64,000 bases of DNA from Xestospongia bergquistia (taxonomy: Eukaryota; Porifera; Demospongiae; Haplosclerida; Petrosiidae): contig OZ014413.1 in the NCBI GenBank assembly GCA_963965975.1, forward strand, positions 8,086,101 to 8,150,100, written 5' to 3'. Shown piece by piece: positions 17,966 through 40,959 of this stretch. Position 1 is the first letter of the stretch; each line of letters starts with the position of its first letter. The position numbers were made by a program, and so were the translations under genes. Below the pieces are notes generated by a model. That model was not told the DNA's origin, searched no databases, and worked only from the letters and a program-made list of their open reading frames with translations.

Positions 17966-19687
17966 TTATTTGCTATATATAGTAAATGTTGGATTATCAG
18001 TACTTTCAAGTTCCTGCCTATCTAATTGCCTTGATTCATATTCTGTAATGATAATTCTCTCATTGACATCAGATAGTTCATTACGTTGTCTATACTTGTA
18101 TTTATATGCAGCAATAGTATAACAGATGACTGAAGTCAACACAAGACCAGTTTTAACAGCATAATATTCCCAGTGACATCCAATAGATGATGTACTCATA
18201 GACTGTGATGCGAGATAGACCCACATGAACATGTACCACAATGTTATCAGTAATCCTTGCATTTGACGAGGGCCTTGAGCTGCAATAAATTCAATGACAG
18301 TCACATAATAAATGAGTGCTCCAATACCATTCAAGACTTGGGGGATTAGTAGAACATAAAATGGCCAAGCTCCTTTGACAATGTCATCTCTTGTACTGCT
18401 GATATTGTCATTGTTATCCAAGCATACATTGGTATGGTTATCATACCTCATCACACTTTTATTAAATGTAAAAGTCACAATAGTTATAACAAACATTTCA
18501 ACCAATATAAGCATTAGTCCAATCCAGATACGCTTCAACATATTAGGAATATAGCGTGAGAAAAATGGCACTATTACAAACTGAAAGAAAGGAATGCCAA
18601 CTGAAAGTATACAGAGTGATATTATATCAGGAAACGATAGTAAAAGGTGTTCCATGAAAGAAAGTGAAGCCTGTTTTGCTTTCAGATATTGATAACTTAT
18701 CCCAGATGATATATCTCTTAAGCTATATCCATACAATGCTAAAATAATAACATATATGTACCAGAAGCTTTTAACATCCTCTACTTCTTCAGTAGTAAAT
18801 GGTCCTCCATATCTCTCTTTACCAAGATCTAGTCTGGAAGGAGGAGACTCTCCATAAGTAAATGCACTACGTTTCACTGGTTGCTTGTGTTTCCATGCAT
18901 ATCTCATTACCCTCCAGATTAGTTTAACAGGATTACTGTAGTTAGATGGTCCAGTATAAAGGCTTGATTTAGCAAAACAACCTAATAACAAAGCAATCAA
19001 TATTGCCAATACAGTCAAACAAAACGAAATCATTAAAATGTAAAATCCTGAAGTTGCTGAGTAATATGAAACAATTGCTAATGTAATATTATTAATAGCA
19101 TAAAAAGGATATTGCATTCCAATGAACCAACGAATAAAATTACTGAGATCATAGGATGGAGCAAAAAGAAGCTGATCACATCCAAACTGGATCACATTGG
19201 ATTGAAAGAGACCAAAACCAAGATGAAGAGGAAAACTGAAAACAATCCATAGCAAAGAAGTAAGAATGGTTATTGTTGTCTCTGATAATGAGAGCTTTGT
19301 CAATGCTATACTAATAGGAATAACAGAAAAAACCATAATATAACCCACTACAAGTATACCAGTGCCAAAAAGTATAACTTTGTAGCGTGTCCATTTCTCG
19401 CCAAAGTAGCCAAGGACCGGATAAAAAAGAATGTACAATGACGATACAGCAATTAAACTCTTCGGTATTTCAAAATTTGTTTCATCTCTGAAGAGAGAAC
19501 TGTTAAAATACACATTAAAAGTTACTATGGTGTAGATTAGAGCTCCCCAAAAAATAACAATGACAGCTCCTTTTGAATGAACACAAGAATATTGATATTT
19601 CATATGTGTCCTACATCGTGGTACACAACACACTGCAGCAAAGGAGTTGCTCTCAGTGACATAACCAGTGACTGATTCTTCTTCCAT
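17966..19687 (-). CDS. POT/PTR-like major facilitator transporter, copy 1
   Basis: This is an intronless 573-aa membrane protein with about 12 hydrophobic segments. It resembles the proton-dependent oligopeptide/nitrate (POT, SLC15-like) branch of the MFS: SNVIQFGCDQL resembles the family xxFGxDQF motif, RWFIGMQYPFYAIN resembles the FYxxIN motif, a cytoplasmic loop ends GGPFTTEEVEDVKSFW, and EFIAAQGPRQMQGLL lies in the late helices. The ExxER proton-coupling motif of helix 1 is not visible, so coupling and substrate are unknown. I start at the Met at 19,687 because copy 2 begins there and has equal length; an in-frame Met 26 codons upstream exists only in this copy. The Cys-rich N-terminus (AVCCVPRCRTH) is conserved between copies. 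Confidence 0.82.
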   Translation of the reverse strand: MEEESVTGYVTESNSFAAVCCVPRCRTHMKYQYSCVHSKGAVIVIFWGALIYTIVTFNVYFNSSLFRDETNFEIPKSLIAVSSLYILFYPVLGYFGEKWTRYKVILFGTGILVVGYIMVFSVIPISIALTKLSLSETTITILTSLLWIVFSFPLHLGFGLFQSNVIQFGCDQLLFAPSYDLSNFIRWFIGMQYPFYAINNITLAIVSYYSATSGFYILMISFCLTVLAILIALLLGCFAKSSLYTGPSNYSNPVKLIWRVMRYAWKHKQPVKRSAFTYGESPPSRLDLGKERYGGPFTTEEVEDVKSFWYIYVIILALYGYSLRDISSGISYQYLKAKQASLSFMEHLLLSFPDIISLCILSVGIPFFQFVIVPFFSRYIPNMLKRIWIGLMLILVEMFVITIVTFTFNKSVMRYDNHTNVCLDNNDNISSTRDDIVKGAWPFYVLLIPQVLNGIGALIYYVTVIEFIAAQGPRQMQGLLITLWYMFMWVYLASQSMSTSSIGCHWEYYAVKTGLVLTSVICYTIAAYKYKYRQRNELSDVNERIIITEYESRQLDRQELESTDNPTFTIYSK

Positions 19688-19929
19688 GATACAATTGCCT
19701 CGAGTGCTATATGGTTTAAGTATATAATGTGCAAAAAAGTTATCCTTATAAACTATGAATGTCATTATTTGTAGACTTGCAATTCAGTTTATACATAAGG
19801 CTAAAATTTCCCTCTGTAACCTGCACTTTGTACTGCCAAATAAGGTGATAACTTTCCTCAATGGAAAGTCCTTTCTATTTATATTATGATTTTTATACAT
19901 ACTTTAACAATACATGTAATAAACATGAA

Positions 19930-21884: not shown

Positions 21885-23606
21885 TTAGTTGCTATATATA
21901 GTAAATGTTGGATTATCAGTACTTTCAAGTTCCTGCCTATCTAATTGCCTTGATTCATATTCTGTAATAATAATTCTCTCATTGACATCAGATAGTTCAT
22001 TACGTTGTCTATACTTGTATTTATATGCAGCAATAGTATAACAGATTACCGAAGTCAACACAAGACCAGTTTTAACAGCATAATATTCCCAGTGACATCC
22101 AATAGATGATGTACTCATAGACTGTGATGCAAGATAGACCCACATGAACATGTACCACAATGTTATCAGTAATCCTTGCATTTGATGAGGGCCTTGAGCT
22201 GCAATAAATTCAATGACAGTCACATAATAAATGAGTGCTCCAATACCATTCAAGACTTGGGGGATTAGTAGAACATAAAATGGCCAAGCTCCTTTGACAA
22301 TGTCATCTCTTGTACTGCTAATATTGTCATTGTTATCCAAGCATACATTGGTATGGTTATCATACCTCATCACACTTTTATTAAATGTAAAAGTCACAAT
22401 AGTTATAACAAACATTTCAACCAATATAAGCATTAGTCCAATCCAGATACGCTTCAACATATTGGGAATATAGCGTGAGAAAAATGGCACTATTACAAAC
22501 TGAAAGAAAGGAATGCCAACTGAAAGTATACAGAGTGATATTATATCAGGAAACGATAATAAAAGGTGTTCCATGAAAGAAAGTGATGCCTGTTTTGCTT
22601 TCAGATATTGATAGCTTATTCCAAATGATGTATCTCTTAAGCTATATCCATACAATGCTAAAATAATAACATATATGTACCAGAAGCTTTTAACATCTTC
22701 TACTTCTTCAGTAGTAAATGGTCCTCCATATCTCTCTTTACCAAGATCTAGTCTGGAAGGAGGAGACTCTCCATAAGTAAATGCACTACGTTTCACTGGT
22801 TGCTTGTGTTTCCATGCATATCTCATTACCCTCCAGATTAGTTTAACAGGATTACTGTAGTTAGATGGTCCAGTATAAAGGCTTGATTTAGCAAAACAAC
22901 CTAATAACAAAGCAATCAATATTGCCAATACAGTCAAACAAAATGAAATCATTAAAATGTAAAATCCTGAAGTTGCTGAGTAATATGAAACAATTGCTAA
23001 TGTAATATTATTAATAGCATAAAAAGGATATTGCATTCCAATAAACCAACGAATAAAACTACTGAGATCATAGGATGGAGCAAAAAGAAGCTGATCACAT
23101 CCAAACTGGATCACATTGGATTGAAAGAGACCAAAACCAAGATGAAGAGGAAAACTGAAAACAATCCATAATAAAGAAGTAAGAATGGTTATTGTTGTCT
23201 CTGATAATGAGAACTTTTTCATTGCTATACTAATAGGAATAACAGAAAAACGCATAATATAACCCACTACAAGTATACCAGTACCAAAAAGTATAACTTT
23301 GTAGCGTGTCCATTTCTCGCCAAAGTAGCCAAGGATGGGATAAAAAAGAATGTACAATGTCGATACAGCAATTAAACTCTTTGGTAATTCAAAATTTGCT
23401 TCATCTCTGAAAAGAGAACTGTTAAAATACACATTAGCAGTTACTATGGTGAAGATTAGAGCTCCCCAAAAAATAACAATGATAGCTCCTTTTGAATGGA
23501 CACAAGAATATTGATATCTCTTATGTGTCCTACATCTTGGTACACAACACACTGCAGTAAAGGAGTTGTTCCCAGTGACATAGCCAGTGACTAATTCTTC
23601 TTCCAT
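21885..23606 (-). CDS. POT/PTR-like major facilitator transporter, copy 2
   Basis: This intronless 573-aa paralogue of the gene at 17,966-19,687 has the same length and the same POT-like motifs (QFGCDQL, FTTEEVEDVKSFW, EFIAAQGPHQMQ). About 17 of roughly 22 amino-acid differences fall in the first 135 residues, including M29K, K30R and V120R; the remaining 438 residues are almost identical. This pattern suggests gene conversion of the 3' two thirds, or selection on the N-terminal part. The gene is head-to-head with the R-SNARE gene, with a 1.25-kb spacer holding a TA microsatellite. Function beyond membrane transport cannot be told. Confidence 0.82.
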   Translation of the reverse strand: MEEELVTGYVTGNNSFTAVCCVPRCRTHKRYQYSCVHSKGAIIVIFWGALIFTIVTANVYFNSSLFRDEANFELPKSLIAVSTLYILFYPILGYFGEKWTRYKVILFGTGILVVGYIMRFSVIPISIAMKKFSLSETTITILTSLLWIVFSFPLHLGFGLFQSNVIQFGCDQLLFAPSYDLSSFIRWFIGMQYPFYAINNITLAIVSYYSATSGFYILMISFCLTVLAILIALLLGCFAKSSLYTGPSNYSNPVKLIWRVMRYAWKHKQPVKRSAFTYGESPPSRLDLGKERYGGPFTTEEVEDVKSFWYIYVIILALYGYSLRDTSFGISYQYLKAKQASLSFMEHLLLSFPDIISLCILSVGIPFFQFVIVPFFSRYIPNMLKRIWIGLMLILVEMFVITIVTFTFNKSVMRYDNHTNVCLDNNDNISSTRDDIVKGAWPFYVLLIPQVLNGIGALIYYVTVIEFIAAQGPHQMQGLLITLWYMFMWVYLASQSMSTSSIGCHWEYYAVKTGLVLTSVICYTIAAYKYKYRQRNELSDVNERIIITEYESRQLDRQELESTDNPTFTIYSN

Positions 23607-24252
23607 GATACAATTGCCTCGAGTACTATATGGTTTAATTATATGTGAAGTTATCCTTATAAGCTATGAATGTTATTATTTATAGACTTGTATTTTAGTT
23701 CATACATAAGGCTAAAATTCCCTCTGTACCCTACACTTGTACTGCCAAATAAGGTGATAACTTCCCTCAGAGTAAACTATTATGATGTTTATACATACTT
23801 TAACAATACATGCAATAAACATGGAAATTTCAAAAGGGTTGAGTGGTCATTTATTTAGTTTTGGCCTATTTATTATTTTTTAGTTAGTTATTGTTATTTT
23901 TGGCCTTTGAGCAATACTTTTAGTTAATTTTTCCTCAAATAAATACTTTTAGTTTGTTTTGCATTTAGTTAGTTTAGTTATTTCCAGTACTAAATATTTT
24001 AGTCACTGCATATAATTTTAGTTAATATAAATAAAATACTGAGCAATATGATAAATTGAAACTTTCAGACAGATATACAAAATATAGGTACTGTTCAAGT
24101 TTGCCTTTCATAAATATATACATTTCTATATTACTTTCATTCAATTAACTATTGTTTATTATAAGTGTTTCGTCCATAATGTAACATGGAATAAAGTTAT
24201 TAAGCATACTGCTGAATAATCTATTAACTTTATAGTACTTATTAAGTGAACA

Positions 24253-28399: not shown

Positions 28400-30853
28400 A
28401 TGGACCAAGTAAGTATAATTATGTAATAAAAATGTATGGATTATATAAGATATTGTATAAAATGTATAAAATAAAATATTATATAAAATATATATATTAT
28501 ACTACAAATCAGTTACACTTTAAAGCTAAATATGTTATTTTAACAACTGATTAGTAGCTTATATTGATAGAATATTACAGAATGTATAATTCATGGTTTA
28601 TTGTATATTTTGTTGTTTTGTAATAGTATACCATACCAACAAATTATATAGTGAGTAATTCACATGAATTAAAAGTTTCATAGTAATCTCATCATGTAAG
28701 CTACAAATATAACGAAGTAATTTTTATAGTGTAACAATGGAAACTTGATTTCACTTTCTTAGACCTTCATACCATTATGACAAATATTAATTTGTTGTGA
28801 TTTGAGCCAAAAAATTCAATTCTTCCCATCATTATTGATATGAATCCTTAGTAAATAATAAGTTTATAAAAGAAAATTGAATACTATATGGACTGTGTTA
28901 TACAAGATTATTAATGTATGCTATTCTGGTTTTACATATTGTTAGTTTTGAATTGAAATTTAATAATCCTTTTTTGGGTTTTAAAAAAACATGAACCATA
29001 GTTTATAGCATATATTGTAAGTTTTATTGCCTTTTATCATATTTCTTACTGAATCAGGTATTGCTGATTGCTACTATACTTGGAGATGTGGAGAAAGCTC
29101 GAGTAGCTCTACAGAAAGGAGCTAATGTCAACACACAAGATGTGGTAAATTATAATTATGAACGATATATTTTAAAGTTCCATAACGGAATTCTAAAATA
29201 AATATCAAATTTATGGTATATAGAGAGGCTCTTTACTACTTACAATTACTGTTATAAACATTATTTATTAGTGATTGTGTGTATAGATTAAGTAAGATTC
29301 TGGCTGTTTTGTGATAGTACAGCTGTGTAAACAGTAATTATATGGGTACTATGATTCTTTGACTCAATATAGTTATGATATTTGTGGTTTTAGAAATTCA
29401 TTACAATAGAGACTTAGAAGTCAAGGCTTTAATGTAACCTCTCTTCCCTCTTGAAATTGAGCTTTTATAAAGTGATCATTGCATGCATCACATAGATAGA
29501 GGCTCTTGCCAAAAATTTAGGAAGGTTGATAATTTAAATTGTTAATAGTAATAAATTATCTAAATTTATATAATTATGCAGATATATATTGTATATCATA
29601 AATTTTAACTTTGTATATTAAATAGGTATTACAAACTTCAATTTTTATGAATAGACTTTTGTACTTATGTTATACTTTTGCCATTCAGGACTGGAACACC
29701 TCCTTATATTGGGCAACAAATGAAGGTCATACTGAAATAGTGTTATTATTACTACAATCAGGAGGAAATCCCAATATTACTAACAAAGTAATATATAGTA
29801 TAATATTTCAATGTTGCTTTAAATGGTCTAACTTGATTGTTTTTACCACTTAGGATCAGATCACACCTTTATATTTGGCATCAAGTAAAGGGTACTTCGA
29901 AATAGTATCACTTTTATTACGATCTGGAGGAGACCCCAATATTGTTGATAAAGTAATATCAAGCAATAACCTAATTTTCCTAACAGAACAATACTAATCG
30001 TTGTTTTTTTTTCAGGAATGGAACACACCTTTATATTGGGCAGCAGCTAAAGGTCACTCCAAAGTAGTATCATTGTTGTTAATGGCTGGAGGAGATCCAA
30101 ATATTGCCAATAAAGTAAATCTTTACATAATATCATTTTAATAAAATTTATATTTTAATACAAACACTATAGTATTTATAGTTGCACATGCAATGTAATC
30201 TTTTTTTAAACTAAGGATCAAAACACTCCTTTATATTGGGCTGCAAGTGAAGGTCACACTGAAATAGTATCATTGTTGCTGCAGTTTAGGGGTGATCCTA
30301 ATATTGCTAATAAAGTGAAGACCAGCACATTTTATATGTACTGTGCCTAATGCATCTGTTTCTTCCAGGATCAAAACACACCTTTATATTGGGCAGCTGT
30401 TAAAGGTCACACTGAAATTGTATTAATGTTGATACAGGCTGGAGGAGATCCTAACATAGCTGATAAAGTATGTTATATAATTATATTATATTAATCAGAG
30501 ATATGACATGTCTGAATGGAGTAGTATTTAAAGATAGAACAAAAAATATTTTATCTTATAGAACCAAAACAGTCCTTTGTATTGGGCAGCTAGTGAAGGT
30601 CACACTGAAATTGTATCAATATTGATAAAAGCTGGAGGGGATCCTAATATTCCTAATAAGGTAATGTCTTAGCGTAGTGAATAGACAATGACACAAATTA
30701 TTTGTATATGTATTCATTTGTATAATTTTGTCAAATTTACTGTGGTGACTCCAGGATTTGAACACTCCTTTACATTGGGCAGCAAGTGAAGGTTACACTG
30801 AAATAGTATCCCTGTTAATACAGGCTGGAGGAGATCCCAACATTGCTAATAAA
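28400..30853 (+). CDS. Exons 1-9: start and first ankyrin block
   Basis: Exons: 28,400-28,408 (MDQ only); 29,058-29,144; then seven 99-nt, phase-0 exons, each encoding one 33-residue ankyrin repeat: 29,689-29,787; 29,854-29,952; 30,016-30,114; 30,216-30,314; 30,369-30,467; 30,562-30,660; 30,755-30,853. A typical repeat reads TPLYWAASEGHTEIVSLL followed by GGDPNIANK. Exon 2 is a half-repeat cap. Confidence 0.85.
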
Positions 30854-33800
30854 GTAATTATTCTCACAATTACTATATATTCATGAACAATGAACTTTAT
30901 ATGTGTACTATGATTTTATCTCTTTAGCAATGATATGTGGTTTTTAAAATTTATTACAATATAGACAGAAAAGAAGGAGTTTAATGCAGCCCTTCTTTCC
31001 AATGACATGTATTGTATAGGTTATATAATCCAATTAACAAATACTTGCTTTATAATTATTTAAGGTAGATCATGGTATTTCACATAAATAGGGGCTCTTG
31101 CAACAGCTAAAAAGTATCCCTAGAATTGAACAAAAGTTAATGAATTTACATTCTCAGTAACAGTATACTATTCAAGTAATAAATATATTGATCTTTACTA
31201 TATATATACACATAAGTTATTATTCATTTTAACAAAGTTTATGTTTTTAACAATGCACTCAATTTTGTGTAAATTTATGTTGTTGTTTTTTATTTTCTGT
31301 TTGCTATTCAGGACTCAAACACACCTTTATACGAAGCAGCAAATGAACATCACACTGAAGCAGTGTTATTATTATTACAGGCTGGAGGAAATCCCAATAT
31401 TGCCAACAAAGTAATGTATTGTTATATAGTATGTTGCTTGATGGCCTAATTATGTTATCTAGGATCATATCACACCTTTATATTTGGCATCATGTAAAGG
31501 CTACATTGAAATAGTGTCAATAATATTACTGGCTGGAGGTGATCCTAACTGTGCTGATAGAGTAAGATCTAACAATAAAGAACTGTTCATAACAGAGCCA
31601 TGCTAATCATTATTAAATTCTTTAGGAAGGAAACACACCTATATATTGGGCGGCAGTTAATGGTCATACTGAAATAGTATCATCTTTGTTAAAAGCTGGA
31701 GGAGACCCAAATATTGTTAATAAAGTAATATTTTGTAGGATTAAAAATTATATTTCTCACACAAACATTGTAATAATTATAGTTGCAATGCACATATATT
31801 TTTTTAAAAATAGGACAAACACACTCCTTTATATTGGGCTGCAAGCGAAGGTCACACTGAAATAGTATCATTGTTAGTACAGTCCAAGGGTGATCCTAAT
31901 ATTGCTAATAAAGTAAAAACTAATGCAAAAAAAATAAGTCTAAAAATCAATGTCTCTCTTAGGACCTGACTACACCTTTATATTGGGCAGCTGTTAAAGG
32001 ACACACTAAAATTGCGTCAATGTTGATACAGGCTGGAGGAGATCCTAATTTTGCTGATAAAGTAGGAATATACTCTCTAGACTAGTCTAAATAGCATAGA
32101 ACAACATAGAAGCTAATATTCCTTTTTATGGATCTTTTAGAACAAAAACACTCCTTTATATTGGGCAGCTAGTGAAGGCCACACTGAAATTGTATCAATG
32201 TTACTGCAAGCTGGAGCAGATCCTAATATTGCTAATAAAGTAATATCTAGTGTATTAATATTGTAATGAGAAACAAACAAAAATAATTAGCAATATTATT
32301 AATTGACATTGTTTTCTTTATTTCATGTGATTATTATAGGATCTGAACACTCCTTTATTTTGGGCAGCAAGTAAAGGTTACACTAAAATAGTATCCCTAA
32401 TAATACAGGCTGGAGGAGATCCCAACATTGTTAATAAGGTAATTCCTTTTCATGATTGATATGTTTTTCTAAAATTATTGGCAATTTCATACATTTTCTT
32501 TTCTTTTGTTAAGGATCATGAAACACCATTAATTTTGGCATCAAATGAAGGTCACACTGAAGTGGTATTATTATTAATACAGTCTGGAGGAGATCCTAAC
32601 ATTCCTAATAAGGTAATATTCAGATGCAAAAGAAAAAATGTATTTAAAAATACTTTGTTCTTATCAAGGTCCATGAGACTCCTATACTTAGGGCTGCAAA
32701 ACAAGGTCACACTGAAGTATTATCACTAATTTTACAAGCTGGAGGAGAGCCTAATGTTGCTGATCAAGTAGTAATACTAAAACTTTACTAAATATCTAAT
32801 TTGAGCACTTCACTTAAGTCAGAAATAGTAATTCTTAAAAATGGTAGTCACTCTCCAATTTAATCTATTGATGAGCATTGCAATTAATAATCTGTTTATA
32901 TCTGTATACATGTATTAGAAATAATTGTTATAGTTAAAAATAGGATTGTAGCTACTAAAAATTGTAAGAATTACATGAGGTTAGTTTTCACAAGTTTTTT
33001 ATTTAGGTTACATTAATTGCAAATGTAAAACACCATAATAACATTGACTGATTCTGTTTTATTTATACTTAATAGACACCTCTACATGTTTGTATAATGA
33101 GTGGTAATTCTGCTATGGTAGAACTGCTATTGCAATATGGAGCTGATCCAAATGCTGTTGATGAAGTTAGTGTCTATAATGTCACTAGGGACTAACATGT
33201 TTATTATTGCATTATGTTTTGTGATCATACCTTACTTAAATTTTAATTTCTTTGGCCTTCATATTTAATAGAATGGCGATACTCCTTTGCATTATGCTTG
33301 CAGATACAGTCAAGCTGACATTGTATACCTCTTATTATCTGAAGGAGTTGATATCACTATCAAGAATGATGATGGAAAGACAGCATTAGATGAGTGTTAC
33401 AAAGACACTATTAAAAATCTATTTGCCAAACATAATCCTAAACGAGGTGAAGATGTGCTATTTGCCTTGCATGCATATATACTGTATAATGAAATTTACA
33501 AAATGTTTACTTTTACCTTATTAGCCTAAAGTACCATTTTATATAATTATCTATATTTATCTAGTTCTAGAAGAGGTTTTTCAATGGAATATTGAAAATA
33601 TTGAAGAGGAGCAAGTCTTTGAAAAGGCAGACTATGGATTTAGACTTGTCATTCCACCATCATCAGTAGAGGAAGGGCAAGTTGTCAACACCCAGGTTAA
33701 AGTAGTTGCACCGGTACCAGAGAAGTTTGATTTCTATCTGCCTGCTAATTTTGAGCCAGTGAGCTGTTTCTATAGAATTGAAACAACAGGACAATTCTCT

Positions 33801-36800
33801 AAGCCTATTGAGCTTCACCTTCAACACAATGTCGAGCTTTTGTCCCAAGAGGACAGCAGAGATCTTGCCTTTGTAGCTGCTAAAGGATCTCCACCTTACA
33901 ACTTTGAGCTACTGTCCTTTGACACATACCAACTGTTCAAGTGTAACGACAACTCTGGCATTTTAATAGTACCTGATTACTCAATTTTTTCAATCATTCA
34001 GCAAATGAGTACAGAGCTACAACCGTTTTGTAACTATGTAATCACAATCTTTTTTAAGCAGATGACAAAATCTTCATGGAAAATACAAGCTGTTGTGACA
34101 AAAAATCTTGGACCTTTTCTCAAAGTAAGCATATAAAAATGGCAGAAATATTTTTGGCAAAATATACATATATACATGTATTTATATACACATGTATATT
34201 TATTCTGATATTGCTTATATCTAATAGAGGGTGAACACAGAATGTTACTTTGATAGTTGGAACAAAATTGACCCAGTCTCTTTCCATTTTGATCCAAATA
34301 AAAATGAAATAACGTTGACATCTACTAATGACTTTGACATTAAGCCAATGTGGAAGAAGCACTGTCAAGTGAGATTTATCATATTATTTGTTAACATTGC
34401 TTTCTTTAAACAAGGTCACTAAGGAAGCAGTTGATCAAAGTAACCCTGGCTCTGCATTGGTTTACTTGCAATTTATAGCCACACTAAAGGACACTGCAGA
34501 GTGCTCTAACTTAGTGTTGCCTTTCAATGGAATGAGAGATAACGAACCGATTGTGATTGCTAGCTGTGAATTACAACAAACTCAAAACACCACTGCTGTA
34601 AATGTTAATTATTCTATTGAAAGTAAAGATAAAAACACTATTGCTCAAATGTTTAATAATAATTATTTAATACAGATCAAATGGTGTCGGCTCATTCTGC
34701 TCCTCCTGCCTGCATGATAGAGTATTTGCCACCACATTACAATTTGGAAGCAATGTCATGTGAGTCAACTAGATATCTGTCAATTAATAGCTTGTCTCTT
34801 TACTCTCCTGTATACAGATCAACAGGCACAGTTTTCTTCGCCTACTATCCAGCCATCACCTAAAACTTCTGTTCCTATCGAAATATTTGGTTAGTTAAAT
34901 TGACTAAGAACAATTTGCTATTATTGTATGAGGTTTTTTAGTTTTTCTAATAATTTATAGATAAAGAACCAAAAAAACAACATCTTATGAGAGTGCTTTA
35001 TCCGATTAAGTATATGTGGGATACTATTGGTGAGCAATTGGCTGTGCGTTATGGTGACATAAAATCGGCTGAATATAATGTGTCATATGACCATACCAGG
35101 AAACTGTCAGAGGTCTTGCAGGTCTGGATTGATAAGAAAACTTGCGAAGTGTCCTGGAGAATGATCATCACAGTTGTATCAGATCCACCTGTTGAAAAAA
35201 AGAGAATAGCTGATGAAATTCGTGATTTCTTAGCAAGACCAGATATACAGAGTGAATATATATCTCTTAATCAACAATGTAAATTGATAGTCTTCTAATG
35301 ATATAATGCATTGTTACTACAGTAGGTCAATATACTTTTACTTCATTTTGTGTTCCAACACCGATTGTACCAAGCCATATTGAGAAAAAAGGTAAATCCT
35401 AGCTATATAAGGCAATGAATGTTAGTATCTTTCTATATAATATAAAGTTATAGTAATGATTTGTTTATATTTAATATTTTTATTTATGCTTGCCAAATTA
35501 TCAAGTGTATATATGCATATATAAATTTTAATAGGTTTCAAGACTGTTTATAAAGTGGAAGTGATCCCTGTCAACAATCAAGGTATGAAATTCTAAATAA
35601 AATTAATCATACTTTTCAGCGAACAATGGTTTTTGAAGATGAGAATCCAGGTATGTTCAATTTATAAAATGAATTACAGTCTTTATAATAATTTGACCTA
35701 ATTTCATTAGAATCTTCTGAATGGAGAGGTATTGATTCTATCCTTTTAAAATTATTTACTTCATTTGTTATCATTAGAGAAAGAGCAAGATGTTTCAGTC
35801 AATTCTGTTGTTTATAAAGGTATAAATGTTTTTATTTGAAGGTATATAAGTTATTACTTCAGATGAGACAGAATTTGCATCAAAAGTTGAAGGCATTGAC
35901 ACTCATGGTACATGTGCTATTTTAAATTAATTTTTATCATCTTATGCTGATGATGCAGGTTCTCAAGATTTATCTGAAGAGAAAGGTATATGAAAATATA
36001 ATGGAGTAAACTAGTTACAAGACTTGTTATCTATTTTTTGCAGTTATTGACAAATATTTTGATGAAGAACAATTTGTTTCTAATGATAACGAAAGTATGA
36101 ATTTATAAGTGCTACAATCTCCTTAGAGTATATATAATGCTCCTTTATAGTTGGAAAAGATGTTTTTCCTGTTTATGAACAGTCTATGCTGAATATGGAA
36201 CCAGGTATAGATTTTCCAGTGATTAATAATGTAATGATGTAATAATACGTTGTTACAATATTTAAATTAAGATCACAATTTTCAAAAAATTAATTATAAT
36301 ACTTAGATACATGATCTGAAAACTATTCTTCAAATTATTGATGTTTATGAACATGCTTTTGTAGGAATTCAAACTACTTATATTGAAACTGTTGAAATGG
36401 AAACTATTTCAGTAATAATGGAAGAAGAATCTTCAGAGAATACAATACAAGGTAATTTTGACTTTTCAAAATACACAACATGCACATTTTCCACTACAAA
36501 GGATATCAACACTTATTTACCTATGCTTGTACATCGTATATGCCAATAAGATTAATTTATTATTGCAATACATGTAGACAATGAAAATATTGGTCTTGAA
36601 ACTTCAGTAGTGGTAGAACAAAACATTTATGTTGATCCTACAGAATATATAATACAAGGTATTATGTTTTAATTTTAACCATGTGCCTACTTATTTTTAG
36701 TAACATAATAACACAAATCAATGATGAAAACATTTTTACATTTTGCTTGATATGTCAATTAATTCTTGATATGTTTATAGACAAGGAAAATATTGAATCT

Positions 36801-38981
36801 GAAACATCTGTAGAGATTGATCAACAAGTTAATGAAGAATCTTCAGAGAATACAATGCAAGGTATTTTGACTTTTGAAAACACACATGCACATTTTCCAC
36901 TACAAAGCATATCAATACTTACTTACTTACTTAGGCTTATACATGGTGAATGCTAACAGATAATATTTTATTATTATAATACATATAGACAATGAAAATA
37001 CTGGTCTTGAAACCTCAGTAGCAGTAGAACAAAACATTTATATTGAGCCTACAGAGTATATAATACAAGGTATTATTTTTTCAATTTTAAAAGTGTACCT
37101 ACTAATTTTTTATAACATAACAACATAAACAATGGTGAAAACAAAAGTACATATTGTCTGGTATCTTAATTCTTGATATGTTTTTAGACAATGAAAATAG
37201 TGATTCTGAAACTTCTGTAGAGGTTAGTCAACAAGTTAATGAAGAACCTTCAGACAATACAATACAAGGTATTTTGACTTTTCAATATACACATACACAA
37301 ATTTTCAATTACAAAGCATATTAACACTTACTTACCTATGCTTGTACATCATATATGACAATAAGATTAATTTATTATTGCAATACATGTAGACAATGAA
37401 AATACTGGTCTTGAAACTTCAGTAGTGGTAGAACAAAACATATATGTTGATCCTATAGAGTATATAATACAAGGTATTATGTTTTAATTTTAAACATGTG
37501 CCTACTTATTTTTAGTAACATAATAACACAAATCAATGGTGAAGACATTAGTACATTTTGTTTGATAAGTCAATTAATTCTTGATATGTTTATAGACAAG
37601 GAAAATATTGATTCTGAAAATTCTGTAGAGATTGATCAACAAGTTAATGAAGAATCTTCAGAGAATACAATGCAAGGTATTTTGACTTTTCCAAACACGC
37701 ATGCACATTTTCCACTACAAAGCATATCAACACTTACTTACCTATGCATGTACATGGTATATGCCAATAAGATTAATTTATTATTGCAATACCTGTAGAC
37801 AATGAAATTGCTGGTCTTGAAACTTCAGTAGTGGTAGAACAAAACATATATGTTGATCCTACAGAGTATATAATACAAGGTATTATGTTTTAATTTTAAA
37901 CATGTGCCTACTTATTATTTATAACATAACAACACAAATCAATGGTGAAAACAAAGGTACACTTTGTTTGATATGTCAATTAATTCTTGATATGTTTATA
38001 GACAAGGAAAATATTGATTCTGAAACTTCTATAGAGATTGATCAACATGTTAATGAAGAATCTCCAGAGAATACAATAAAAGGTATTGTGACGTTTCAAA
38101 ATACACATACACAATTAATTTTTGATATGTTTATAGACAATGAAGATACTGTAGAGGTTGAGCAACAAGATTCTTTAGAGAATACAATGCAAGGTATTGT
38201 GCTTTTCAAAGTACACACACATTTTTACAACAAAGCATGTAAGTCAATTAGACAAATTTATTCTTGATACATTGTAGACAGTGAAATCACTGAAATGGAG
38301 AATACTTTAGAAAAGATGAAACAAGAATTTGATGAATCTACAGACACTATGATACAAGGTATGCATGTTTTTGTTATGTACATATCCTCAGTTTTACTGC
38401 AATTAATGTACTCAAGCAAAAAATATTGCTGAAATGAAAGGTATACATGTCTGTTATGCCAAATATATGATAGATTTATATCTGATTCATTTAGACAATG
38501 AAAGTGCTAATTTCGAAACAGGCACTACTTCTGTGGAAGTGGAAACACAACTTGATGAGGAGGCTATTGAAAAAAAAAAGCCAGGTACTATGCATTATCT
38601 AAAACACTCAAACTCATTTTACTATATTATTATCTTGTGTTTAAGCACAAACTCTCAATGAAAGCAAAGGTATTATGTAAATAATTTTACTTTTTAAATA
38701 GCTTGTATAATATTATAAATAGACAATGAAAGTAGTCATTCTGAAAAGGAGACGGTGTCAGTGAAAGTGGAACAAGAACCTGATGAAATGGAACAAGAAG
38801 CTCCTTTAAAATCATCCAATCCAATAGGAGTAAGCAATAATAATATATAATAATCACTACATATAAGTACATATCTACTAAATTAATGTACTAAGCTATT
38901 TAATTTCTAAAACTTAACGTAAATTAATTAGGTGCTCTTTTAAATGCATACAATATTATATATAATATATAGATCCATACA

Positions 38982-39071
<90 letters not shown>

Positions 39072-40092
39072 TATGTATGTATCTATGTATACTCTTAATT
39101 TCTTATTTGAAGTAACCATTTATCTTAATCCAGTTTGCTGCTCATCACCTTCATCAACAAGCTAAGCAATGGGAGGAGAAAAATAATGATATGGTGTCAG
39201 CTACTAAAAGCATGGCCAGACTGATGATGCAAATGTCTAAATTTTCCAGGTAAACTCATATAAATTATCACTGAAATGTTAGCAATAAAATGATCTATTA
39301 TAAATAACAATTGAAGACTTGTACAACATTTTGTTTCTAATCATTACAATATTACATATCATAGTATGTGTGACATATGTATCAAAAATAAGACATCAGA
39401 ACAAAGTAGTAGTAGTAATTAAAACTTGACAGGATATACTTGCTAAAGAAGCTCATACTATTGTGATCATGCTATTAATATGATAAAAATAGGCAATAAT
39501 TAACTTGCATGTTTACAGAGATGAAGAATGTGATGTATCCTCTAAAGAAGATTTTATGGAAACAGCTAACCTTATAGTCAAAGAAAGCCAAGAAGTTGTC
39601 CAAATGGCTAGAAAAATTGCTTCTCTTTGCACAGATGAGCACATGAGAAATGTGAGTACTACTTATATTAGATATTGAACATGTATAGTCTAATATTGTA
39701 AAAGTTTATATACCATCAACTAACTATTATTATACCTTCAAAATTTATTGATAACTATAATGTAAATTACAGACTCTGTTACAAGTTGTCGATGCTATTC
39801 CAACAATAGCTACTCAACTCAAAATTAATATTTCTGTGGAAAGTACTAAGCAAGAAAGAGATGGTATGTATGTGTTTTCTATGATTCAGTATACAACTAG
39901 TTCATTTTCAAAATAGATAAAGAAGCAGAAAAAGTAGCCACTAACATGTTAATAGTGAATGCTGAGAATCTAATGACCACTGTAGCTGATGTACTAAAGG
40001 CTGCAGAAACTGCTGCTATAAGAATTCCTCTAGAAGCTAAAGCCCAGTTGGTTGGCCTGACCTGGATAAAAACTGATAACTTACTTTTTTAA
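28400..40092 (+). CDS. Ankyrin repeat - ZU5-like - death domain - vinculin-tail protein
   Basis: A 53-exon model (5,304 nt, about 1,767 aa) starts at ATG 28,400, with an in-frame stop upstream, and ends at TAA 40,090-40,092; every junction keeps the frame. Order: about 19 ankyrin repeats (residues 4-650), a ZU5-like domain (about 660-835), an unassigned segment (836-1,003), a death domain (about 1,015-1,095), an acidic linker of short and duplicated 27-residue exons (1,110-1,596), and a vinculin-tail-like domain (1,597-1,767). ANK-ZU5-death is the ankyrin plan (ankyrins also have a second ZU5 and UPA); vinculin tails bind F-actin and acidic lipids. I therefore infer a cytoplasmic scaffold that could link membrane or death-domain partners to actin. 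One gene rather than two is supported by continuous splicing phases, with no stop or start between parts. Transcript evidence would be needed to exclude two overlapping transcripts. Confidence 0.8.
31312..32438 (+). CDS. Exons 10-16: second ankyrin block, duplicate of exons 3-9
   Basis: Exons: 31,312-31,410; 31,463-31,561; 31,626-31,724; 31,814-31,912; 31,963-32,061; 32,141-32,239; 32,340-32,438. Repeat by repeat they resemble exons 3-9 in order (for example DQITPLYLASSKG with DHITPLYLASCKG, and WAAVKGHT in both fifth repeats). The preceding introns also match (TTTATTACAATATAGAC near 30,950 with TTCATTACAATAGAGAC near 29,398), so the unit was copied as genomic DNA. Confidence 0.85.
32514..33446 (+). 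CDS. Exons 17-20: last ankyrin repeats
   Basis: Exons: 32,514-32,612; 32,669-32,767; 33,076-33,165; 33,272-33,446. Exon 20 includes a canonical repeat (NGDTPLHYACRYSQADIVYL) and a C-terminal capping repeat (DDGKTALDECYKD). It leaves phase 0 for phase 1 and joins the ZU5 exon. Confidence 0.85.
33565..34124 (+). CDS. Exon 21: ZU5-like domain
   Basis: One 560-nt exon. The sequence YGFRLVIPPSSVEEGQ, then PVSCFYRIETTGQFSKPIEL and later GILIVPDYSIF, follows the ZU5 pattern (G-x-L-x-IP start, then a kPv strand) found in ankyrins, UNC5 and PIDD. The C-terminal part (ITIFFKQM, KIQAVVTKNLGPFLK) could be the start of a UPA-like region. Assignment is by pattern only. Confidence 0.65.
34228..34889 (+). 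CDS. Exons 22-25: segment between ZU5-like and death domains
   Basis: Exons: 34,228-34,368; 34,415-34,622; 34,676-34,759; 34,818-34,889. I do not recognise the fold. Position suggests either a degenerate UPA domain or a linker. The end (SSPTIQPSPKTSVPIEIF) is a Ser/Pro-rich linker. Confidence 0.7.
34961..35278 (+). CDS. Exon 26: death domain
   Basis: The 318-nt exon encodes a six-helix death-fold pattern: MWDTIGEQLAVRYG, then LSEVLQVWIDK, VSWRMIITVVSDPPV and ADEIRDFLA. Death domains form homotypic signalling complexes. The donor (AAT|GTAAAT) lies before an apparent stop, so splicing is needed to read on; the next acceptor at 35,323 could also be used three bases later (NAG-type choice). Confidence 0.8.
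35323..36204 (+). CDS. Exons 27-35: short linker exons
   Basis: Exons: 35,323-35,391; 35,535-35,582; 35,639-35,650 (12-nt microexon, tentative); 35,711-35,728 (18 nt, tentative); 35,778-35,819; 35,863-35,907; 35,959-35,985; 36,044-36,094; 36,151-36,204. All are phase 1-1, so any can be skipped in frame. The encoded sequence is polar and acidic and matches no domain I know. Confidence 0.6.
36365..38829 (+). CDS. Exons 36-49: acidic linker of alternating 27-residue repeat exons
   Basis: Exons: 36,365-36,451; 36,578-36,658; 36,781-36,861; 36,989-37,069; 37,188-37,268; 37,393-37,473; 37,596-37,676; 37,799-37,879; 38,002-38,082; 38,137-38,193; 38,278-38,358; 38,495-38,584; 38,646-38,669; 38,723-38,829. 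Two types alternate: ENTGLETSVVVEQNIYVDPT and ENIDSETSVEIDQQVNEESS. The dimer recurs every 404-411 bp, introns included. The product is acidic and probably unstructured or weakly helical. Confidence 0.8.
38986..39067. repeat. (GT)n microsatellite, about 41 units
   Basis: Lies in the intron between the acidic linker and the vinculin-tail exons. Confidence 0.97.
39134..40092 (+). CDS. Exons 50-53: vinculin-tail-like domain
   Basis: Exons: 39,134-39,249; 39,519-39,651; 39,773-39,863; 39,917-40,092. The 171 residues follow the vinculin tail closely: FAAHHLHQQAKQWEEKNNDM, MARLMMQMSKFSR, ESQEVVQMARKIASLCTDE, TLLQVVDAIPTIATQLK, and NAENLMTTVADVLKAAETAA followed by a short tail (GLTWIKTDN) that parallels vinculin's C-terminal arm. 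Vinculin tails form a five-helix bundle that binds F-actin, PIP2 and paxillin. The vinculin head is absent. It fits vinculin better than alpha-catenin. Confidence 0.85.
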
Positions 40093-40959
40093 ATTTAATC
40101 TATTATTTTTATTATTAGAGACCAAAACATTTTTGAAAGTATTTAATGATTTTAAAATGTAGTCTTTGTTTTACCTTTTCTTTTATTACTTTTATCTGGT
40201 TGAATTTTTACCATTTCTTTATTTGCATAGTTTTGTTTTCTCATCATTGACTAGTAGAATAATTAAAAGTGTTTATTTTCAGTAGAAGTTAATATATTAT
40301 GTAATCCCACCCCCTAAACATGCAGCAAAGTATGACTTTCTGAAAGTGTGGACATCGAGGTTTGTGTCATTATCAAGCTAATAACCTGAGGAATAGTAAA
40401 AATACGAACTACTTTGACAATTTGGTGAGGTATAAAAGTCTGCATACATGTACATAAATGTATGAAGGGTTTATGTTGCACCATTAATACTTTGAATGTG
40501 TAGGATGACATTTATATCTACAGGGAGACCCTCTAGCTGCAGTATTATATAATTATCATGTGAGTATATGCTTTTATACATTAACTCATACCACAATTAG
40601 GTAACAGGATAACTATTCTACATGTATGCAAAAATGTTTTTTCTTATATTTTATATTCTGACTAACTACATGTTATCTTTAGATAATATGAAGGCAGAAT
40701 CAAAGATAGAAGGTGTCATGTTTGTTGAGACAACAATCATTGAAAACAAAAAGAAAATGCTGGAAGTAGAAGAGAAACATTATTAGTCATAGAGTGTGTC
40801 TGGTAATCAGGGCTCGTGAACAAACCTTTTATAGAATTTTAATTCCCGTTTGTTTGCTGTTTCAATTTAAGTTTAATTGTTAATTAAGTATTAAAGACGT
40901 AGTTCAAACAATTTTTATTTCATGAAGTTTAGTCATATGTTATATATAATTATATATAA

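Follow-up and report, generated by a model that had tools for sequence, protein, structure and literature searches.

We analysed a 64,000-nt stretch of the Xestospongia bergquistia genome (GCA_963965975.1, contig OZ014413.1; C3:8086101-8150100 in our coordinates), referred to below as the window. Its forward strand holds, at positions 28400-40092, a gene modelled by hand as 52 exons that encode 1,759 amino acids, with the first ATG as the predicted start and a TAA at 40090-40092. The frame has no internal stop, and all 51 introns run GT..AG (median 94 nt, maximum 649 nt). An earlier note on this DNA had proposed one continuous frame from the ankyrin (ANK) repeats to the C-terminal tail, and the 52-exon model bears this out. 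From the genomic sequence we infer one protein-coding gene with a single spanning transcript. The predicted protein opens with about 19 ankyrin repeats; a ZU5-type domain and a death domain follow, both weak, and a long acidic linker then leads to a vinculin tail. Sixteen exons of the ANK part are 99-nt phase-0 units with one repeat each, and exons 24-47 are of phase 1-1. A Pfam scan of the whole protein gave Ank in 18 stretches and one C-terminal Vinculin stretch (E 9.1e-37). The parts of the gene are listed in the table.

Table. Parts of the predicted gene at window positions 28400-40092
Feature	Window positions	Strand	Evidence
Exons 1-20: predicted start, then about 19 ankyrin repeats, most of them encoded by a single 99-nt phase-0 exon each	28400..33446	+	Pfam Ank in 18 stretches; Ank_2 E 2.5e-161
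Exon 21: ZU5-type domain and the part after it	33565..34124	+	ZU5 E 0.018 for this exon; 12/12 family members match at E 0.1
Exons 22-25: expected place of UPA, UPA not detected; exons 22-23 conserved in relatives	34228..34889	+	
Exon 26: death domain	34961..35278	+	Death E 0.022; family profile matches FADD death domain
Exon 27: proline-containing linker, apparent counterpart (by eye) of the SPPPIAPKPT-type exons of relatives	35323..35391	+	
Exons 28-47: linker, acidic for the most part; all exons of phase 1-1, among them 81-nt repeat exons in alternation	35535..38584	+	
Exon 48: junction exon J, ends DEMEQEAPLKSSNPIG, related to the pre-tail exon of vinculin	38723..38829	+	Matches in three vinculin genes
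Exon 49: vinculin tail exon T1	39134..39249	+	
Exon 50: vinculin tail exon T2	39519..39651	+	
Exon 51: vinculin tail exon T3, with I1689 and V1693 (aligned to human I997 and V1001)	39773..39863	+	
Exon 52: vinculin tail exon T4 and stop	39917..40092	+	

By sequence, the C-terminal domain corresponds to the five-helix tail of vinculin. When this tail was isolated, it matched Pfam Vinculin at E 4.7e-40, so that exons 50-53 of the earlier note (49-52 in our model) do have the significant vinculin profile match that their vinculin-like description implied. A search of the PDB with the tail placed Oscarella VIN1 closest (2e-38), with vertebrate vinculin chains next (at best 3e-31); alpha-catenins reached at best 7e-10 and were ruled out as its source. 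The sole Vinculin stretch of the whole protein covers profile positions 574-846 of 852, and the head domains D1-D4 were not found in it. Neither ZU5 nor Death appeared in the Pfam scan of the whole protein at E 0.1. At the same threshold ZU5 was found in 12/12 sequences (the window exon and 11 relatives from the same genome; best 1.5e-6) and Death in 18/24 (the window exon and 23 relatives; best 2.6e-7), and a profile of the death-exon family matched the FADD death domain at E 0.0012. The ZU5-like and death-domain assignments of the earlier note, weak in the window, are thus secured by the relatives. UPA was matched by 0/8 spliced family members at E 0.1, whereas ZU5 was matched by 8/8; a profile of these eight members gave no match in the PDB, and a PDB profile search with the ZU5 exon returned a single weak, unrelated match (0.27). 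The PIDD-type autoprocessing motif HFS occurred in 0/14 spliced sequences; the window has DYS, and 9/13 relatives have DFS.

To place the gene in its genome, the whole 146.46-Mb assembly (21 contigs) was searched for family members. Pfam Vinculin gave 54 matches, 37 of them on the part of the profile that covers the first tail exon, and searches with the window's own parts gave 115 tail exon matches, 153 for the ZU5 region and 150 for the death domain. Cross-tabulation used 96 of the 153 ZU5-region matches (those over the ZU5 part among the matches listed), 80 of the 150 death matches and, from the 115 tail matches, 38 places of tail exon 1 and three others. Among the matches listed, ZU5 and Death lie within 12 kb upstream and on the same strand at 32 of the 38 tail-exon-1 places. 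Three of the 32 (C6:8482276, C6:8613772 and C1:10793191) apparently owe a match to a neighbour. Without them there are about 29 loci on four contigs, the window included, where ZU5, the death domain and the first tail exon all apparently belong to the locus itself. Of the remaining six places, three are ordinary vinculin genes (C1:25.60-25.61 Mb), one is a partial duplicate (C3:8155374) and two lie at C1:21.28 Mb and C1:21.30 Mb. Twelve fusion loci were tested for ANK matches ahead of ZU5, and 11 have them; the other one offers only 142 nt of sequence there. The spacing from death match to tail falls to 270 nt among the 29 loci. The predicted window gene is therefore a member of a same-genome family of ANK-ZU5-death-domain proteins with a vinculin tail, a family that the earlier note, right on frame, tail, death domain and ZU5-like region, had missed.

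The usual order in the copies examined is death domain, junction exon J and tail exons T1-T4, and most splice sites of this block recur at the same base. The exact expected base was found for the J donor in 24/24 fusion copies, for both T1 sites and the T2 donor in 25/25 each, and for the T2, T3 and T4 acceptors in 24/25, 21/21 and 20/22, respectively. One base to either side there were 0 matches, save six at +1 for the T3 donor. These 25 fusion copies count C3:8155374 twice (as L011 and L040), giving 24 distinct copies, 22 with an upstream death-domain match in the sequence examined. The three vinculin genes share seven of the sites in 3/3 and the T4 acceptor in 2/3, since L005 ends before T4. 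J itself, which in the window ends in DEMEQEAPLKSSNPIG, has 34 matches at E ≤1, among them the vinculin genes at C1:25604053 and C1:25615210, and is present in the third vinculin gene too. Its phase-1 acceptor, for which the AG was chosen by eye, stands at the usual place in 25/26 copies, all three vinculins included. J measures 116 nt in the vinculin genes, about 56-62 nt in most fusions and 107 nt in the window. On the other side of the join, the death exon of the window gene ends in phase 1; the death-exon donors of relatives were looked for in the phase-1 register only, and for this reason their phase is no independent test. In L045, a proline-rich exon and J are all that stands between death exon and tail, in frame, so that no selection from many small exons is needed to obtain this frame. 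Because order, strand and splice phases recur across the genome in this way, a chance join of neighbouring genes was rejected for the window.

Several observations weigh against the explanation proposed below. ZU5 and Death are faint in the window gene: the ZU5 part when cut out scores E 0.089 and the death exon E 0.022, both below the cut-offs, and about 20 small linker exons of the window gene were picked by eye, part of them possibly mis-modelled. L054 has no junction-exon match, L055 has no usual junction acceptor, and the T3 donor is exact in only 10/21 copies, where exon length varies. The order is not universal: the death domain is broken in the second L055 copy, and some loci stop short of T3 or T4. 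Two tail copies, C3:8155374 and L031, are without their own death domain in the sequence examined. In addition, by a rough count among the matches listed, 32 of 62 loci with ZU5 and Death have no tail within 12 kb, and the tail of one of the other 30 (C1:12247456) is borrowed from a neighbour. As about half of these loci are without a tail, the wider family can do without one.

The likely source of the tail lies in the same genome. Three vinculin genes or gene ends stand in tandem at C1:25.597-25.621 Mb on the minus strand, in one of which (L003) T2 apparently is shorter and T4 contains an early stop; a fusion locus at 25.697 Mb on C1 is at most about 100 kb away. We built a tree of 23 tails, using only those with all tail exons in the sequence examined and leaving out L030 for its odd T4. 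The 19 fusion-type tails grouped as a single clade (100/99) within the local vinculins; the outer pair was made up of the Oscarella and human chains. The simplest reading of this tree suggests a single capture of the tail block from a vinculin of this lineage, which exchange between copies could blur. In such a capture, the five 3'-terminal exons of a local vinculin gene (the pre-tail exon and four tail exons) would have been placed once behind the death exon of an ANK-ZU5-death gene. Both flanks of the join apparently were phase-1 introns, and with phase-1 introns on both sides the reading frame would be kept at once. Afterwards the family would have multiplied, some copies losing or passing on their tails and tail types being swapped between bodies. 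Donor vinculins, captured block, matching phases and resulting family would thus display exon shuffling nearly step by step in one genome.

Later changes of the tail were examined in a death-domain tree of 32 rows (22 with tail, 10 without). Tail-bearing and tail-less genes were mixed, ruling out tail-bearing genes as one death-domain clade. The tree requires at least seven changes of tail state, at least five of them forced by well-supported branches, and shuffled tail labels did equally well in 54/500 trials (68/500 for the tail-less label); the label is barely clustered. These changes may be losses, transfers or both. Loss is evidenced by the tail-less ZU5-death gene L056 (C1:12248674), which keeps a junction-exon remnant, EVDEMEKEAPLQS, at L056:2125-2163 (C1:12.25 Mb); a convincing T1 was not seen after it in the searched stretch. 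Eight hand-picked pairs were compared for swapping. Death domains were far closer than tails in L026/L028 (96% vs 62% identity), L029/L033 (95% vs 66%) and L036/L037 (89% vs 64%), and the reverse held for L028/L036 (71% vs 95%) and L026/L037 (67% vs 93%); L038/L045 were concordant (94% and 95%). By these identities, tails seem to have moved between gene bodies. The swapped tail types would suggest selection for variety, by analogy with immune receptor families.

The residues of the tail bear on what it may do. Isoleucine 997 and V1001 lie within the actin-bound surface of human vinculin, and I997A was made as an actin-surface mutant, according to the account given in PMC5384775. The window keeps both (I1689 and V1693), and in the other tails the I997 position is conserved in 15/19 and the V1001 position in 17/19. 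The T12 mutant loosens the contact between vinculin head and tail. It changes D974, K975, R976 and R978, as listed in PMC5384775. In the 19 other tails D974 is kept in 19/19, K975 in 4/19 and R976 in 0/19. The case from these head-contact positions has points against it: the loss is partial, with 978 basic in the window and R or K in 12/19 other tails, and R976 is already gone in the local vinculins (Q or S). The head-contact argument is weak alone for this last reason. The chain has no vinculin head, and the tail is not expected to be held shut as in vinculin. The tail may bind F-actin and phosphatidylinositol 4,5-bisphosphate (PIP2), and the protein would most likely act as a death-domain scaffold anchored to actin. 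In the proposed working, the ankyrin repeats would bind a ligand, the death domain would recruit other death-domain proteins on release or clustering, and the tail would anchor the scaffold to F-actin or acidic lipid. We likewise suppose an immune or adhesion setting, ligand binding through the repeats and clustered death domains. Such a fusion would make a direct link from actin to a death signal testable.

The strongest competitor accepts the fusion and holds that the tail no longer binds actin, serving as a folded linker, a dimerisation module or a lipid-binding module. The I997 position is A in 4/19 other tails, the same change as in the human actin-surface mutant, the V1001 position is R or A in 2/19, and tail state changes often across the family. 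On the other hand, isoleucine and valine are both conserved in the window gene and most relatives, and the ratio of nonsynonymous to synonymous substitution rates (dN/dS) is below 1 in 170/170 usable pairs of the 171 fusion-tail pairs (after a dS filter; median 0.41; L030, with its odd T4, and VIN_L003 left out), with 0.35-0.59 for the window tail against other fusion-type tails. We consider this competitor unlikely, although it deserves to be taken seriously. The fusion tails are under purifying selection, and this also speaks against a decaying or non-expressed family of functionless duplicate remnants. Partial copies do exist at C3:8154-8163 kb, C1:21.28-21.30 Mb, C6:8482276 and, as a second copy, in L055. 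Yet the window frame is intact across 52 exons, and the 20 assembled non-vinculin tails are open (L027 as far as its sequence goes, L030 with its end shortened; assembly was confined to copies with every tail exon in the sequence examined), so that general decay is very improbable. The C3 copies are three partial 3' ends (L040, L041) 28-36 kb downstream of the window gene, one with linker, junction and T1-T4 and two with T2-T4 only, the T2 match being split; ANK, ZU5 and death domain were not found with them in the stretch searched. They might recall two genes in the window, in which a short tail-only gene or a vinculin relic would lie, in frame by chance, behind a separate ANK-ZU5-death gene, as might the 3.9 kb between death match and tail, but we give this the least credence of all given the 29 places on four contigs with all three parts and a gap as short as 270 nt, the identical J donor phase in 24/24 copies and the in-frame link of L045.

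A one-time capture of a vinculin tail, followed by family expansion and yielding a death-domain scaffold anchored to actin, is thus our best joint explanation, and on balance a probable one. We advance only tentatively the further idea of recombining, actin-anchored death-domain receptors, in which interchangeable ANK-ZU5-death bodies and tail cassettes would guard cortical actin, trigger a death or immune response on its disturbance and possibly take part in self recognition. Clustered expansion and module swapping would here resemble immune families.

To our knowledge, actin binding of the vinculin type and death-domain signalling are separate functions in the animals described so far; the fusion would join them. 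With vinculin (Oscarella VIN1 and vertebrate vinculin) the window protein shares the whole tail of about 170 residues, and same-genome vinculin genes have the tail intron positions and phases of the fusions; it differs in having no head in its chain, and the K975 and R976 positions are mostly changed in fusion tails. UNC5 and PIDD are ZU5-UPA-death proteins. In them, as in the fusion family, ZU5 lies ahead of the death domain, whereas the fusion family has ANK repeats in front, no detected UPA and HFS in 0/14. The ankyrins (ANK-ZU5-ZU5-UPA-death) have the same order of ANK repeats, ZU5 and death domain, whereas the window gene has one weak ZU5, no UPA found and an added vinculin tail. The ankyrin cassette is described as ZU5-ZU5-UPA in PMC5135030. 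Membership of the ankyrin family was rejected, since a long ANK array and a death domain are present but this cassette was not found; calling the gene an ankyrin-type protein, as the earlier note did, was not supported. The window protein is neither an ankyrin nor a vinculin. Amphimedon likewise has large lineage-specific death-superfamily expansions with variable partner domains, ankyrin and other C-terminal domains among them, as reported in PMC8195603; those are centred on TRADD-N, and the main text of that paper mentions vinculin 0 times. For Ephydatia muelleri, one vinculin homologue is given from the transcriptome (PMC6820919). A full-text literature search, at the level of titles and abstract openings and with subscription papers outside its scope, found no such fusion described, in line with the earlier note, whose author knew of no described protein joining ankyrins and vinculins. 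Known domains appear here in an apparently undescribed architecture, and as a whole gene family.

Some minor features were also recorded. A long TG repeat lies at window 38986-39067, inside the intron between junction exon and T1. Past the stop codon, at window ~40683-40786, there is a linker-like open stretch (DNMKAESKIEG...), possibly a relic or an alternative exon. On the minus strand, two long open frames at 17966-19783 and 21885-23663 encode 605 and 592 residues (96% identical over 587); they look like many-spanning membrane proteins and matched nothing in Pfam at 0.001. The gene is flanked by several SRCR-like frames, at window 5-11 kb on the minus strand and 50-64 kb on the plus strand; the two that were tested matched SRCR at 3.8e-19 and 2.4e-19.

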